Source: JBGPLH01 sp041486365 [NCBI: Thermodesulfobacteriota bacterium] (GTDB lineage: Bacteria > JAUYMQ01). From it: a stretch of DNA of 9,715 nucleotides. Numbering within the stretch: position 1 is the first letter of the stretch; each line of letters begins with the position of its first letter. The DNA is taken from positions 1 through 9,715 of the forward strand of contig JBGPLH010000101.1 in assembly GCA_041486365.1 (NCBI GenBank), written 5' to 3'. Shown piece after piece: positions 155-9,715 of this stretch. Both the position numbers and the translations under genes were made by a program. Under the pieces are notes generated by a model. That model searched no databases, had not been told where the DNA came from, and was given only the letters and a program-made list of their open reading frames with translations.

Positions 155-1222
155 TCAGGAGCCCGATTCACGAAGGATCACGCGCCCGAAGGCCCCCGGC
201 TCCGCGCGCGCCTCGACCCAGCCGACGCGGTGGGCCGCGACGCCACGTCGCGTGAGCGCCGAGACCAGCGTCTCCAGCCGCGCCTCAGGGATGGCGATGA
301 GGAGGCCGCCGGAGGTCTGCGGATCGAACGCGATCTTCTTCCAGACCTCGTCGAGCCCCCCGGGCCAGAGGATCATCGGGCCGTAGTATGCCTGGTTGTG
401 CGCCGTCCCGCCGGGGCTCATGCCGCGGCGCGCGAGGTCCATCACGTCGGGCAACAACGGGAGCGCCGATAGCTCGATGGCCACGCGCACGCCGCTCCCG
501 CGCGCGAGGTTCATCGCGTGGCCGAGAAACCCGAAGCCCGTGATGTCCGTCGCCGCCCTGGCGCCCGCCTCGATCATCGCCTCGCAGGCGTCGCGGTTGA
601 GCCGCAGCATGGAGGCCGTCGCCGCGTCGAGCGCTTCCCTGGACGACTTCCCGCGCTTCGTCGCCGTGGCCACGAGCCCCGTGCCGACCGGCTTCGTGAG
701 AAGGAGCGCGTCTCCCGGCTCGGCCCCCTGATTCGTGGTCAGGCGGGCGGGATGCACGAGGCCCGTGACGCTGAGCCCGTATTTCAGCTCCTCGTCCTCC
801 ACCGTGTGGCCGCCCACGATGACGGCGCCCGCCTCACGGACCTTGTCGCCTCCGCCCTTGAGAATTTCCACCAGGACCCCACGGTCGAGCTTCTTCGAGG
901 GAAAGCCCATGACGTTCATCGCCGTGAGCGGCCGCCCGCCCATCGCGTAAACGTCCGAGAGCGAATTGGCCGCGGCGATCTGCCCGAAGAGGAAGGGGTC
1001 ATCGACGATCGGGGTGATGAAGTCGACCGTCTGCACGAGGGCGACCTCGTCGGAGATCCGGTAGACCCCGGCGTCGTCGTAGGTGTCGATCCCCACGAGC
1101 AGGTTCGGGTCGTCGCTCCCCGGAAGACACGCGATCGCTTCGGCAAGGCCACCCGGGCCCAGCTTGGCGGCTCAACCGGCGGTCTTCACCGTCTTCGTCA
1201 GTTCGATTTTTTTGTGGGTCAT
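155..1222 (-). CDS. selD: Selenide, water dikinase (selenophosphate synthetase) with a UGA-encoded selenocysteine
   Basis: SelD makes selenophosphate from selenide and ATP, the selenium donor for selenocysteine and 2-selenouridine synthesis. Reading TGA (1172-1174) as Sec gives 355 aa, close to the 347 aa of E. coli SelD. The N-terminus reads [24 protein letters not shown], so U17 and K20 fall where E. coli has catalytic Cys17 and Lys20. Other visible SelD marks are VQTVDF (63-68), SDVYAMGG with D90, [13 protein letters not shown] (137-149), [10 protein letters not shown] with D226 and DPQTSGG (300-306). D50, D90 and D226 correspond to the Mg-ATP aspartates. The frame is unbroken on both sides of the TGA, which argues against a pseudogene. 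A GTG at 1096 would give a 313-aa product lacking the catalytic segment and is not the true start. No Shine-Dalgarno precedes ATG 1222, but a promoter lies immediately upstream. The SelA, SelB and tRNA-Sec genes are not in the window. Confidence 0.93.
1148..1171 (-). promoter_or_regulatory. Candidate bacterial SECIS hairpin immediately after the selD UGA
   Basis: Directly after the UGA the mRNA reads GCCGCC (1171-1166), a 12-nt loop AAGCUGGGCCCG, then GGUGGC (1153-1148). The arms form six pairs including one G-U. An alternative fold pairs CAAG-CUG with UGG-CUUG around a bulged C, leaving a 7-nt apical loop that begins with GG, which suits SelB recognition better. That loop is only 12 nt from the UGA, closer than the 18 nt I count in E. 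coli fdhF. Bacterial SECIS elements are known to lie inside the coding region just downstream of UGA. GC-rich sequence forms hairpins easily, so structure alone is weak; position supports the call. Confidence 0.45.
1172..1174 (-). other. In-frame UGA, probable selenocysteine codon 17 of selD
   Basis: TGA on the minus strand sits at codon 17 of selD, in the context T-A-G-(UGA)-A-A-K. In SelD families this position is the nucleophilic Cys or Sec, followed three residues later by an essential Lys, which is present here. The reading frame continues through conserved SelD sequence on both sides without a shift. Direct observation: a TGA flanked by the SelD active-site context. Inference: it is decoded as selenocysteine. 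Confidence 0.88.
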
Positions 1223-1296: not shown

Positions 1297-2724
1297 TCAT
1301 TCGTAGAGGTTGTGCTGCTCCGATCCGGCGAAGCGCAGCGGCACCTTCGAGACGACCCAGCGGAACTTCCCGCTCGGCCCGCGCGGGATGTCGTCGACGA
1401 ATTCGACCTCGATGGCGACGGAGGGCCCCAGGCGCTCGCCGAGAGCCGCGACGAGCTGCCGCGTATCGTCGTCCGTGTAGCCGGAGCGCCGGACGATCTT
1501 CACCGTCACGCGATCGGGCGTCTCCTGGACGATCTGGCTCTTCTCGATGCGGACCATGGGCTTGAAGGGGTGGGTGAGCGTGGAGGACGAGATGAACCGC
1601 CCCTCCGGCGTGACGACGATATCCTCCGCCTTCGTCGTGACGGCGGCCATGCGCGGCAGCGTCCGGCCGCAGCCGCAGGCCCCGCCGATCTTCGCGCTCA
1701 CGTCCCCCACCTCGTAGCGGATGAGCGGCATCCCGTGGTTCTGGAGCCCCGTGGCGATGATCCGCCCGAACTGTCCCTCCGGGAGCGCCTCGCCGTCGTC
1801 CCCCACGATCTCCAGGACGCCGAACTCCGGCTGGACATGGAGCCCGTGGTGCTTCTCGCACTCCATGGCGAAGAGCACGCGCTCGGCCTGGCTGAAGACG
1901 TCGAAGACCCGGCAGGCGAAGGCCTGCTCGATCGTCGCGCGCTGGATCGGGAGCAGCGTCTCGGAGGAGCACACCACCCCGCGCAGGGGGAACGTCTTCC
2001 CGCTCTCGACGACGTGGCGCGCGAGGATGTAGGCGGTGCTCGGGTAGGCGTCGAGAAACTGGCACCGCCGCGCCCTCATGGCGTCCAGGTACAGCGGCAG
2101 GTTCCGCTCCTCCAGGTGGAAGGAGGAGAGCAGGAGCTGCTTCCAGGGCGCGTTCCACCGCCAGAAGGGGGGAAGCGTCCGCGCGATCGGGACGATGGTC
2201 CGGCCCAGCAGGCTCGCGTAGGGCGACCCGAAGGCGAACCCGGCCCAGCCCCGCGCGCGCCAGTTGGCCGCGTTGTTCGCCACGTCCACGCGCCGATCCC
2301 AGAGCACGGTGACGGGCGACCCGGTCGTGCCGGAGGAGTTCCCCGGCTTGAGGTCCTTCGGCCGGTCGTCCGTGGACACGAGGCCCTCGAACCGTGAACG
2401 CAGGATGTCCTTCGTGAGGATCGGGAGCTTCGCGAGATGGGCCACACCGCCGATGTCCCGGGGCTCGAGCTTCCGCTCGCGCATCACGTCGCGGTAGTAG
2501 GCGACCTTCTCGTAGGCGTGCCCTATCAGGTCGCGCACCGCCCGGTCCTGCATCGCGGCCAGCTCCGCGGGCGGCCGCCGCTCGTTCTCCGCGAAGATCC
2601 GCTGCCACAGCCGGTACTCGTCGTTGAACCGCTCGCGCCGGATCTTCCAGCCGTAGGCGTTGAGCGCGAGCGTCTGGAGCGCCGCGGGGCTCGCCGCGTA
2701 GATCCGCTCGAGGACCTTCTTCAT
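1297..2724 (-). CDS. CapK/PaaK-like adenylate-forming enzyme (phenylacetate-CoA ligase family)
   Basis: This 475-aa protein belongs to the adenylate-forming PaaK/CapK family, which activates a carboxylate as acyl-AMP and usually passes it to CoA or another acceptor. Visible motifs are the P-loop NSSGTTGSP (129-137), DVFSQAERV (275-283, the position of the YGxTE-type motif), LIRYEVGD (334-341), a Cys-containing CGCGRTLPRM (350-359) and the C-terminal GPSGKFRWVV (449-458) with the expected lysine K453. No signal peptide or membrane segment is evident, so it should be cytosolic. The ATG at 2724 overlaps the upstream glycosyltransferase stop as ATGA, with GAGGG 6 nt upstream. The frame is open further upstream, but that part is only antisense-quality sequence in another gene. 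CapK-like members are common in capsule and O-antigen clusters, where their substrates are mostly unknown. Here it may activate an acyl group for glycan decoration; this is inference. Confidence 0.82.
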   Translation of the reverse strand: MKKVLERIYAASPAALQTLALNAYGWKIRRERFNDEYRLWQRIFAENERRPPAELAAMQDRAVRDLIGHAYEKVAYYRDVMRERKLEPRDIGGVAHLAKLPILTKDILRSRFEGLVSTDDRPKDLKPGNSSGTTGSPVTVLWDRRVDVANNAANWRARGWAGFAFGSPYASLLGRTIVPIARTLPPFWRWNAPWKQLLLSSFHLEERNLPLYLDAMRARRCQFLDAYPSTAYILARHVVESGKTFPLRGVVCSSETLLPIQRATIEQAFACRVFDVFSQAERVLFAMECEKHHGLHVQPEFGVLEIVGDDGEALPEGQFGRIIATGLQNHGMPLIRYEVGDVSAKIGGACGCGRTLPRMAAVTTKAEDIVVTPEGRFISSSTLTHPFKPMVRIEKSQIVQETPDRVTVKIVRRSGYTDDDTRQLVAALGERLGPSVAIEVEFVDDIPRGPSGKFRWVVSKVPLRFAGSEQHNLYE

Positions 2725-3875
2725 GGGGCGCCCTCTGCCGTGCCGGCGCCCGGAGCCCCGTCGGGCGGCGGGACCACCAGATGCGCGGGGACCGGCGGCA
2801 CCGCCGCTATCCCGCCCTGGACCAGCGCCCCGAACATCCCGTCGATCACCGCCATGTTCTCCCGCATCGACGCGCGCGCGCACACGAGCCGCCGGTTCTC
2901 CTCCCGGGCCCGGGCGGCGCGGGCCGGATCGGCGAGCGCGCCGCCGATCGCGCGGCCGATGGCGTGCGGGTCGCCCGCGGGGACGAGATCCCCGGTCAGG
3001 TCGGGACGGATCCAGAGCCGGTTCGCTTCGTTGTCCGTCACCACGGGCCAGGCCCCGCAGGCCATCGCCTCGAGCAGCGACGCGCTCACGCCGTCCGTGC
3101 GCACCGTCGAGACGTACACGTCGCATGCACGCAACAGCTCCACGAGCCGCTCGATCGAGACGCGGCCCGGGAACTCGACGTGCTTCGCCACGCCGAGCGT
3201 GTCCGCGAGCGCCACCAGCCGCTCCTTCTCGGGCCCCTCCCCCACCGCCGTCCAGACGGCGTCCGGGAACCTCTTCAGGACGTCGGGCAGCGCCCGGAGG
3301 ATCGGCTCCAGGTTGTAGTCCGCCCGGAGAGCGCGCGTCGAGAGGAGGCGCGTCGGCGTCCCCGGCCGTGGCCGGCTCCCGTCCATCGTGAATCGCTCCG
3401 TATCGATCCCGTAGGCGATCGTCCGGATCCTCGCCGGGTCGCAGCCCAGGGCGATCATGTTCCGCGTCATGTGGGCGCCCCAGGAGGTGACGAGATCGGC
3501 GCGGGCTAAGGCGTAGCGCGCGAGGGCGCGCTTCATGCGGGAGGTGGGCGGAAAGGCGATGTGCATCCCCTGGGCCGCCATGGCGAGCGGATGGAGACCG
3601 GCCGCAGCGGCGAGCACCCCGTAGGAGGTGACGCGGTAGGCCACCGTGAGATCGGGACGGAGCCGGCGGGCCAGCGCGCGTGCCGCGGGGATCGCGGCGA
3701 GGTATCCGAGACGCCCGAAGCGGCGGCCGAGCGGATGGAACGTCACGCCCACGGGCGCCGAGGAAGGCTCCTGGAGCGAGGCGAGGTGCACCTCGTGCCC
3801 AAAAGCGACGGCCGAGTGCTCGGCCCAGACGCGGGTGTAGGGGCTCGTCGCCTCACCGAGGAAGAGGATGCGCAT
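2721..3875 (-). CDS. GT4-family glycosyltransferase
   Basis: A 384-aa GT-B fold glycosyltransferase (group 1, GT4). It starts MRILFLGEATSPYTRVWAEH, an N-terminal Rossmann strand typical of the family. The C-terminal nucleotide-sugar domain shows VGEGPEKERL (211-220), HVEFPGRVS (232-240), a central ACDVYVSTVRTDGVSASLLE run (250-269) and EAMACGAWPVVTDN (269-282). The usual E-x7-E appears here as D261-x7-E269. It should transfer a sugar from a nucleotide donor to a growing glycan at the cytosolic face; donor and acceptor cannot be read from sequence. The last 30 residues or so are Pro/Gly/Ala-rich and look disordered. The start lies 6 nt after the methyltransferase stop, and the stop overlaps the CapK-like start, indicating translational coupling within the cassette. 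Confidence 0.88.
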   Translation of the reverse strand: MRILFLGEATSPYTRVWAEHSAVAFGHEVHLASLQEPSSAPVGVTFHPLGRRFGRLGYLAAIPAARALARRLRPDLTVAYRVTSYGVLAAAAGLHPLAMAAQGMHIAFPPTSRMKRALARYALARADLVTSWGAHMTRNMIALGCDPARIRTIAYGIDTERFTMDGSRPRPGTPTRLLSTRALRADYNLEPILRALPDVLKRFPDAVWTAVGEGPEKERLVALADTLGVAKHVEFPGRVSIERLVELLRACDVYVSTVRTDGVSASLLEAMACGAWPVVTDNEANRLWIRPDLTGDLVPAGDPHAIGRAIGGALADPARAARAREENRRLVCARASMRENMAVIDGMFGALVQGGIAAVPPVPAHLVVPPPDGAPGAGTAEGAP

Positions 3876-4745: not shown

Positions 4746-5986
4746 GCGGCCTTCTCCCCTGCGCCTTTCGCGATGGCGGCGCGAAGGATCTCCAGATAGT
4801 CGTCCGCCAGCCTTCTCCGGTCGTAGTGCGCCTCGACGTGGGCGCGCCCCTTCTCCCCCATGGCGCGGGCCCCGGCCGGATCGTCGGCCAGCGCGCGCAC
4901 CGCGCGGGCCAGCGCCTCGCCGTCGCCGGGCGGAACGGTGATTCCCACGCCGTCGCTCCGCAGGATCGCCTCGCATTCCCCCGCGCCCGAGAGCACCACG
5001 GGGAGCCCGCAGGCGAGCTGCTCGAACACCTTCACGGGCAGCGATCCGCGGGTGAGCGCCGTGTCGGCCAGCGTCGCCACCCCGGCGTCGCAGGCGTTCA
5101 GCACCGCCGGGACGTCGCCGGAGGGAACGCTCGCGCCGAAGATCACGTTGGAAAGCCCCGCCTCCCTGGCGCGGGCCTCCATCCGCGACTTGTCGGCCCC
5201 CTCGCCCACCAGGAGGAAACGGATCCGCGGGTCGTCCCGAAGAGCCGCCGCGGCGTCCACGATCACCTCCGCCCCGTGCATGCGCCCCATGAGACCGACG
5301 TAGCCCGCCACGAAGGCATCCTCCGGGATCCCGTAACGCGCGCGGATGGCCGGGTCCCGCGGCGCGGGGCGGAAGCGCTCCGTGTTGGCGCCGTTGGGGA
5401 TCGCCGAGACCTTCGCCGCGGGCACGCCGCCCGCGACGATCGCGCGGGTGAGGCCATCCGTCGCGGTGACGATCCGGGAAGCGCGCGCGTACACGAACCG
5501 CTCGAGCGCCTCGAAGGCCGACAGAACCGGACCCTCCTTCAGGACCCCCGCCGCCACCGCGGAGGCCGGGTAGAGATCCCGCACGTCGAAGACCAGGGGG
5601 ACGCCGCGGCGCCGCGCCATGAGCCACCCGGCCACGCCGATCGTGAGGGGCGGGGACGTCGCCACGACCACGTCGGCTTCTCCCGCGCGATCGAGCAGGG
5701 CCGGGAGAATCGCGAAGAGCACCTGGTTCACTATTCGCCGGGCGATGGCCGAGCGCGCGTAGGGCACCGTGAACACGCGGTGCACCGGGACGCCGTTCAC
5801 CTCATCGCGCCGGAAGAGGCCGTTCGGGTAACCCGGAAAGATCCGGCCCTCCGGGTAGTGCGGGTTCCCCGTGACGACGGTGACGACGTGGCCCCTCGCG
5901 TGCCATCGCTCGGCCAGCTCGGAGGCGCGCACCGCCGCCGCCGCCCGCTCGGGCGGATAGGTGTCGCCCACCAGAAGGATGCGCAC
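4742..5986 (-). CDS. GT4 glycosyltransferase, WbuB-like
   Basis: A 414-aa GT-B glycosyltransferase of the WbuB-like GT4 group, enzymes that add amino- or deoxy-sugars in O-antigen and capsule synthesis. The N-domain starts [20 protein letters not shown] and contains the group's signatures [15 protein letters not shown] (106-120), [20 protein letters not shown] (131-150) and [14 protein letters not shown] (160-173). The C-domain has [10 protein letters not shown] (231-240), LVGEGADK (259-266) and [16 protein letters not shown] (316-331), where E322 is the likely donor-binding glutamate. The GTG start at 5986 is chosen because it gives the conserved MRILLVGD strand; a weak GGGGGT lies 7 nt upstream. 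It begins 24 nt after the alr stop, and its stop overlaps the methyltransferase start. The donor sugar is not predictable. Confidence 0.9.
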
Positions 5987-8396: not shown

Positions 8397-9053
8397 TTGG
8401 CGGAGGTCCTCCTCATCACCGATCGGACCCGGAGCCGCGGCCGCCCGGTGGACGAAGGGGTGGCCGCCGCGGTGCGCGGCGGCGTGCGGATGGTACAGGT
8501 CCGGGAGAAGGATCTCGCGACGCGCCCGCTTCTCGATCTCCTGCGCGGCGTGACGCGCGCGGCCACAAAGGCCGCGGGCGGCCCGGGGCGCGTCCGGGTC
8601 TTCGTCAACGATCGGATCGACGTCGCGCTCGCGGCCGGCGCCCAGGGGGTCCACCTCGGGGCCCGGACGATCCCCGTCGCGGCCGCGCGGCGCGTAGCGC
8701 CGGGCCTTTCCATCGGCTACTCGGCCCACGATCTGGAGGAAGCGCTCGGGGCGGAGCGCGACGGCGCGGACTTCGTGACCTTCGGTCCGGTGTTCGAGAC
8801 CGCCTCGCCGGGCGTGAAGGCCCCGCCCCGGGGGCTCGCGCGGCTTTCGGAAGTCTGCCGCGTGCTTCGCATCCCGGTCTTCGCCCTCGGAGGGATCACA
8901 GCGGCGCGGGTGCCCGACGCGCTCGCGGCGGGGGCCGCGGGCGTGGCCGTCGTCTCGGCCATCACGGAGGCCGCCGATCCCGCCGCCGCCGCGGAGGCCA
9001 TCGTGAAGGCGTGCCGCTCTTCCTCGTGGAACCCGAAGGAGCGCTCGACATGA
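8397..9053 (+). CDS. tenI: ThiE/TenI-family protein, more TenI-like (thiazole tautomerase)
   Basis: A 218-aa TIM-barrel protein of the ThiE/TenI family. ThiE joins the thiazole and pyrimidine halves of thiamine; TenI aromatises the ThiG product. Shared motifs are MVQVREKDL (32-40), VNDRIDVAL (70-78), GVHLG (84-88), FGPVFETAS (129-137) and ALGGI (163-167). The sequence after GVHLG is ARTIP rather than the ThiE GQ[ED]D block with the Mg-binding acid. GYSAHDLEEA (107-116) resembles TenI GYSVHSLEEA, and the ThiE TxTK diphosphate segment is replaced by TASPGVKAPP. These favour TenI, but TenI and ThiE are often confused. A TTG start at 8397 is used, 4 nt after thiG, with GAGGG 8 nt upstream. Its stop overlaps the next gene as ATGA. 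Confidence 0.72.
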   Translation: MAEVLLITDRTRSRGRPVDEGVAAAVRGGVRMVQVREKDLATRPLLDLLRGVTRAATKAAGGPGRVRVFVNDRIDVALAAGAQGVHLGARTIPVAAARRVAPGLSIGYSAHDLEEALGAERDGADFVTFGPVFETASPGVKAPPRGLARLSEVCRVLRIPVFALGGITAARVPDALAAGAAGVAVVSAITEAADPAAAAEAIVKACRSSSWNPKERST

Positions 9054-9565
9054 ACGGACCCAGCCTCCCGCAGCGCATCGCCCATCCCGACGTCCGCGAC
9101 GGGAGCTTCCTCGCGCGCCTGTCCCCCGGCGTCGCCCGCATCCTCGATCGATCGCTCGAGGGGATCGAGATCAGCGAGGACGACGCGACGGTCCTCTTCG
9201 GGACGACGGGGCCCGATCTGGCCGCGGTACTCGGCGTCGCCGATCATCACCGGCGCGAGATCAACGGCGACGTCGTCACCTTCGTGGTGAACCGGAACAT
9301 CAACTTCACGAACCGCTGCTTCGTCGGCTGCAAGTTCTGCAACTTCAAGGTCCGCGAGGAAGGCCCCAACGCCTATTTCCAGGATCTCGAGGAGGTCGCC
9401 CGTCGCGCCGACGAGGCGGTCGAGCGCGGCGCCACGGAGCTGTGCATCCAGGGCGGGCTCCACAAGGAGCTGCCCGGCACCCACTACGAAGCGATCCTCC
9501 GGACCATCCGCGCGCGCCATCCGCGCCTGCACCTGCACTCCTTCTCGAACGTTCCAGGCTCTTGA
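9050..9565 (+). CDS. cofH: CofH-like radical SAM protein, 3' part missing at a sequence junction
   Basis: The frame encodes 171 aa, about 166 of which look native. The [4Fe-4S] motif C90-x3-C94-x2-C97 lies in NRNINFTNRCFVGCKFCNF (81-99), and is followed by ATELCIQGGLHKELPG (128-143) and HLHSFS (161-166). These match CofH, the FO synthase subunit that joins tyrosine to a ribityl-aminouracil for coenzyme F420. MqnC and MqnE are related but lack the CIQGGLH form. Full CofH is about 370-400 aa, so over half is missing. After HSFS, where CofH continues with P-x-E, it reads NVPGS and stops, exactly where base composition changes. The ATG is supported by GAAGGAG 8 nt upstream and a 4-bp ATGA overlap with the preceding gene. 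The stop at 9563 is probably not native. Confidence 0.78.
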   Translation: MNGPSLPQRIAHPDVRDGSFLARLSPGVARILDRSLEGIEISEDDATVLFGTTGPDLAAVLGVADHHRREINGDVVTFVVNRNINFTNRCFVGCKFCNFKVREEGPNAYFQDLEEVARRADEAVERGATELCIQGGLHKELPGTHYEAILRTIRARHPRLHLHSFSNVPGS

Positions 9566-9570
9566 AATCG
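9548..9570. other. Composition and homology junction (probable chimeric join or breakpoint)
   Basis: Upstream of here lines run at 70-75% GC with strong CofH coding homology. The 150 bases after 9565 hold 72 G/C (48%), with a different codon style and an unrelated kinase frame. CofH homology ends after codon 166 (9545-9547) and kinase homology is clear by 9583. No inverted repeat, target duplication, tRNA or integrase is seen at the join, so an assembly chimera is the simplest explanation. Confidence 0.75.
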
Positions 9571-9715
9571 GGACCTAACCCTCATAAATTAGCGCGCTAT
9601 CTGCTTAATATTCAGGAGGAGGAACGCAAGTGTATTGCGCGGGAGCTGCATGACGATGTTGGGCAGCGTCTTGCATTGATAAAGATCGAACTTGAAATGG
9701 CGCTGCAGAAAAACC
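9562..9715 (+). CDS. Fragment of a HisKA_3 sensor histidine kinase (NarL/DegS-type), both ends missing
   Basis: From about 9583 the frame reads HKLARYLLNIQEEERKCIAR and then ELHDDVGQRLALIKIE, running open to the window end. ELHDDVGQ is the phospho-acceptor H-box of HisKA_3 kinases, preceded as usual by QEEERKxIAR. These membrane or cytosolic sensors phosphorylate LuxR/NarL-type response regulators. The frame differs from that of the CofH-like gene and has no start codon or ribosome site, so this is the interior of a gene whose 5' part is missing. The left limit is uncertain: the frame is open through the junction into GC-rich sequence with no kinase homology. AT-richer codons (ATA, TTA, AAT, AAA) set it apart from every other gene here. 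Confidence 0.75.
   Translation, partial: MKSGPNPHKLARYLLNIQEEERKCIARELHDDVGQRLALIKIELEMALQKN

Follow-up and report, generated by a model that had tools for sequence, protein, structure and literature searches.

A probable selenocysteine-type selenide, water dikinase gene with an in-frame UGA at its catalytic codon

The selD gene and its in-frame TGA codon

The stretch of DNA analysed here (9,715 nt, hereafter the window) contains a gene, selD, that almost certainly codes for a functional selenophosphate synthetase of the selenocysteine (Sec) type, in which the in-frame UGA at codon 17 would be read as Sec. The gene and its relevant positions are:

155 to 1222, minus strand: selD, selenide, water dikinase (TIGR00476, AIRS and AIRS_C domains, translation)
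1172 to 1174, minus strand: in-frame TGA, codon 17, predicted Sec at the catalytic Cys/Sec position (sequence; TGA in 29 of 30 relatives)
1163 to 1165, minus strand: codon AAG for Lys20, the conserved active-site lysine (sequence; opposite a Lys of 3u0o_A)
155 to 157, minus strand: TGA serving as the true stop codon of selD (sequence and stop-codon table)

The gene starts at ATG 1222–1220 of the minus strand and comprises 355 codons plus the TGA stop. The first 16 codons, including the ATG, are followed by TGA at 1174–1172 (codon 17), two Ala codons and the codon of Lys20, after which the frame is open to the TGA at 157–155; apart from codon 17, there is no internal stop in the entire frame. 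Two sense codons (CCC ACC) separate ATG 1222 from an in-frame TAA TAA on its 5′ side, and this ATG is therefore the first usual start codon of the frame. No clear Shine-Dalgarno sequence was seen before ATG 1222 when the sequence was inspected by eye.

With residue 17 taken as Cys/Sec, the product matches TIGR00476 with 382.8 bits (cut-off, 125) over residues 8–313, a match that spans the UGA codon, and NF002098 with 330.3 bits (cut-off, 299), and the AIRS and AIRS_C domains are both present in the 355 residues. In an alignment to PDB chain 3u0o_A, residue 17 is situated opposite a Cys and Lys20 opposite a Lys. By its sequence, this is a genuine gene of the selD (selenide, water dikinase) family: a SelD is recognised by a match, over most of its length, to the curated equivalog model (TIGR00476; also NF002098) and by a Cys/Sec codon followed three residues on by Lys, and both are found here.

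The first-pass annotation of the window had proposed a TGA at codon 17, exactly at the catalytic Cys/Sec position, with K20 intact and with SelD homology in a single frame on both sides of the UGA, and had recommended aligning the readthrough product to SelD families. The coordinates of the codon were right and the family matches given above extend over both sides of it, in support of the predicted Sec-type SelD. It had also warned that standard gene calling would lose the active site, which is what occurs: the automatic listing of open reading frames contains only 155–1096, with GTG 1096 as the start and with residue 17 and Lys20 lost. The window selD illustrates in this way a standard annotation error, in which a gene caller would remove the active site of the enzyme.

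Predicted decoding and function

In the proposed mechanism, SelB would bind a stem-loop immediately 3′ of the UGA and bring Sec-tRNA-Sec to codon 17; readthrough would lead to the full 355-residue enzyme, whose mobile N-terminal segment would have Sec as its catalytic residue. Sec17 and Lys20 would take part in the reaction of selenide, ATP and water that yields selenophosphate; the catalytic roles of these two residues are well established for the SelD family. The selenophosphate produced would feed SelA, and hence the synthesis of SelD itself, and possibly also the formation of selenouridine in tRNA.

An improbable variant of this scheme is that the window comes from an unsampled lineage in which a Sec-type SelD is retained chiefly for its own synthesis and that of selenouridine and is the sole, or almost the sole, selenoprotein. 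Species with SelD as their single selenoprotein are already described in the text of Zhang et al. (2006; PMC1794560), and none of the results obtained here points to SelD as the sole or near-sole selenoprotein.

Codon 17 in related selD genes

Relatives of the window gene were obtained by scanning genome_contigs for exact matches to any of six 8-residue patterns, a procedure that possibly missed closer relatives; the scan yielded 30 genes that are 41–55% identical to the window selD, none exceeding 55%. According to their records, they belong to Dehalococcoidia/Dehalococcoidales, several groups of Deltaproteobacteria, Pseudomonadota, Stahlbacteria, Spirochaetes, Poribacteria and Cloacimonadota. 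Codon 17 was TGA in 29 of these 30 genes and TGC in the other (L026, from genome G026).

Two larger groups were also covered. Within the phylum of the Poribacteria MAG, which is itself one of the 30 relatives, 75 of 84 genomes had a strong selD match (E < 1e-80), five had weak matches only and four had none; each of the 75 strong matches contained exactly one TGA, and this was codon 17 in all ten genes that were fetched. Within the class of a Geobacteraceae MAG (G006; 277 genomes), selD genes with TGA and selD genes with no stop were both found among the matches listed. Codon 17 was TGC in three and TGT in one of four selD genes of this class without an internal stop, and the selD from genome G121 contained two TGA, one at codon 17 and one at query position 349. 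Identity to the window selD did not exceed 57% among the matches listed for either the phylum or the class. The window gene has UGA where its homologues have UGA or a Cys codon, which is one mark of a bacterial selenoprotein, and the TGC and TGT alternatives correspond to the usual Sec/Cys exchange.

This distribution bears on the possibility that an ordinary Cys-type selD has acquired its TGA through a nonsense mutation or a base-calling error. TGA is one base away from TGT and TGC, and Cys-type relatives do exist, but of the 355 codons the change would need to have struck precisely the codon at which 29 of 30 relatives have TGA, and the gene has no other in-frame stop. Because the same codon is TGA across the relatives, and TGC or TGT otherwise, we consider a chance mutation or error at codon 17 very unlikely. 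Still less credit can be given to translation from GTG 1096, the first start codon past codon 17, which would give a shorter product lacking the N-terminal segment with Cys/Sec: relatives (for instance L020, L023 and L025) show conservation ahead of the UGA, the product would be devoid of residue 17 and Lys20, and inspection by eye revealed no clear ribosome binding site for this GTG either. An organism-wide reassignment of UGA to an amino acid, with which an open frame across one UGA is compatible, is practically discounted because TGA ends selD as well as six of the eight other genes examined in the window (the remaining two end in TAG), and none of these eight has an internal stop.

Selenocysteine machinery in the related genomes

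ARAGORN predicted no tRNA genes in the window, and no match to the selA or selB families was found among the window proteins scanned. In the genomes of the 29 relatives with TGA, the respective cut-offs were passed by SelB in 27 (all but G001 and G017), by SelA in 24 (all but G001, G005, G008, G015 and G025) and by tRNA-Sec (RF01852) in 26 (all but G012, G017 and G030); many of the records are titled MAGs, and some of these absences may be gaps. The first-pass annotation had predicted this machinery for a genome with such a gene, and most of the relatives bear the prediction out. The same cut-offs were passed in 14 control genomes by SelB in two, by SelA in one and by tRNA-Sec in five. Five is above the number of Sec users expected among the controls, and RF01852 matches near 50 bits may correspond to tRNA-Ser or tRNA-Leu. 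Because the cut-off was passed in more controls than expected, a count of tRNA-Sec matches of at least 67 bits was added, which includes 24 of the 29 genomes. In two cases (L002 and L019), the locus that carries selD also has a tRNA-Sec gene according to ARAGORN. In G026, the genome with the Cys-type gene, SelA had no match and SelB none over the cut-off; the tRNA-Sec match, of 53.8 bits, was over the cut-off.

A second set of genomes, from the class of G006, was composed of the 15 best-ranked genomes with no stop in selD and 15 of the best-ranked genomes with one TGA, in both cases among the matches listed, plus G333. Genomes G005, G006 and G010, already included in the first set, and G121, with its two TGA, were left out, and codon 17 was read in four of the 15 genomes with no stop. 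SelB was over the cut-off in all 15 genomes with TGA versus 11 of the 15 without it. Since these 11 genomes also have SelB, this protein is not specific to a Sec-type SelD; a Sec-type SelD predicts SelB well, as the first-pass annotation had proposed, but not the converse, and for the window organism SelB is a prediction. The gene marks its source organism as a probable user of selenocysteine.

The selD from G333 (L075; G333:C142:621-2031) is of the Cys type and carries an in-frame TAG at query position 64, away from the Sec codon, probably reflecting a broken gene or a base error; SelB was over the cut-off in this genome. Another particularity was observed in a Desulfopila MAG (L013), where ARAGORN predicted a 94-nt tRNA-Cys (GCA) downstream of the Sec-type selD, at 4756–4849 of the minus strand; this unusual length may be due to a long variable arm or to a poor prediction.

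A candidate bSECIS hairpin after the UGA

The sequence that follows codon 17 can form a stem-loop:

1143 to 1163, minus strand: candidate bSECIS hairpin (fits the published model)

The model of bacterial SECIS elements, as outlined in PMC13188914, comprises a loop of 3–9 nt with a G in the first two positions, an upper stem of 4–16 bp, a distance of 16–37 nt from the UGA and an energy of −7.5 kcal/mol or lower. The window hairpin has an upper stem of 5 bp (1160–1156 with 1150–1146) and a loop of 5 nt, CGGGU (1155–1151), with G in second position, and is extended below by 2 bp of GC (1163–1162 paired with 1144–1143). Its loop begins 16 nt after the UGA and its energy, including the lower pairs, is −14.1 kcal/mol. 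In L001, L020 and L023, the hairpins agree with it in spacing, loop length and stem length.

Taken alone, the window hairpin is not significant and is to be expected from the encoded amino acids and the GC content. Its thermodynamic z-scores ranged from 0.73 to 1.64 in four windows, and hairpins as good were found in 556 of 2000 codon shuffles and at 53 of 331 other codon positions of selD. When this GC-rich gene was recoded synonymously, 100 of 100 versions fitted the model and 96 of 100 were as stable. The exact geometry (loop at 16 nt, 5-nt loop and at least 5 bp), which was picked post hoc, appeared in 242 of 5000 synonymous recodings, and hairpins of any kind with 5 bp or more and the loop at 16–20 were present in 3944 of 5000.

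Forty genes with TGA were examined (the window gene, the 29 relatives and the ten from the Poribacteria phylum), and they are not independent, several being near-identical (e.g., L005/L006/L010 and L016/L017). The bSECIS model was fitted by 38 of these 40 genes versus 293 of 800 codon shuffles and 2429 of 4000 synonymous recodings, and the best hairpin had its loop 16–20 nt after the UGA, a range picked post hoc, in 32 of the 40 versus 981 of 4000 recodings. Base pairs were also counted in 16 of the 41 extracted genes, picked to cover the lineages, and in 500 shuffles and slid versions. Both the percentage of paired positions and the covariation score were above those of all 500 shuffles and of the slid versions; 79 of the 500 shuffles had at least as many pairs with double changes and 368 at least as many pair types, and slides +1 and +3 had just as many double-change cells. 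Pair counting suggests modest covariation; RNAalifold did not retrieve a consensus structure from the same 16 genes, and no Rfam SECIS family matched positions 900–1400 of the window at E values up to 10. Altogether, the window hairpin is a plausible candidate for the bSECIS that would direct Sec insertion at codon 17. A hairpin that fits the model (−9.9 kcal/mol, same spacing) also follows the TGC codon of the Cys-type gene L026; this hairpin may be a relic of a Sec-type ancestor or a product of chance.

Relation to known SelD proteins

FdhA and SelD are given as the most widespread bacterial selenoproteins by Zhang et al. (2006; PMC1794560), where a table lists Sec-type SelD as a selenoprotein in Geobacter, Desulfovibrio and Syntrophobacter. 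In the reference set of prokaryotes described by Mariotti et al. (2015; PMC4561486), Sec is present in 19% of SelD genes, always at the same position. These passages agree with the first-pass annotation, which had called Sec-type SelD an established variant. As to the number of selenoproteins per genome, a Methylomirabilota MAG is said to have 63 selenoprotein genes (PMC13188914).

As in other bacterial Sec-type selD genes, UGA at the catalytic codon, Lys20, full length and a hairpin-forming sequence after the UGA are found together in the window gene. It differs from its Sec-type relatives in sequence, at the identities given above for the 30 relatives and for the matches listed in the class of G006, and in that there is no adjoining selB, whereas selB adjoins selD in seven of the 15 genomes with TGA of the second set (G114, G136, G152, G214, G238, G244 and G247). 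The Cys-type SelD of PDB 3u0o (Selenide, water dikinase), which we take to be that of E. coli, is homologous over residues 2–333 and has Cys at position 17, where the window product has a predicted Sec. In PDB 2yye/2zod, presumably the SelD of Aquifex aeolicus and naturally a Sec enzyme, the GCAAK of the crystallised form aligns with GUAAK of the window product, the sequences being otherwise distant. The window selD is a further, divergent member of the well-described family of Sec-type SelD proteins, to which it adds one divergent sequence, and no open question about mechanism arises from it.

Other genes in the window

Seven of the eight other reading frames examined in the window match known families. 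The neighbours identified include genes for two glycosyltransferases and a methyltransferase, alr, and thiS-thiG-thiE, and have no evident link to selenium. The remaining frame (1300–2727, minus strand), situated upstream of selD, gave no Pfam match at a threshold of E 0.001; by eye, its product resembles adenylate-forming enzymes of the PaaK/CapK type. The window ThiG is 69–70% identical to those of the Geobacteraceae-type genomes G005, G006 and G010 and 65% identical to that of the Poribacteria MAG, with any ThiG match present in the genomes of 17 of the 30 relatives.

A frame for a CofH-like radical SAM protein (9011–9562) stops after 184 residues and covers the first 126 of the 345 positions of the CofH model. 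At 9557–9715, the G+C content is 48.4%, down from 67.6%, and the final bases code for the beginning of a HisKA_3 histidine kinase region; this segment looks like a chimeric contig end.
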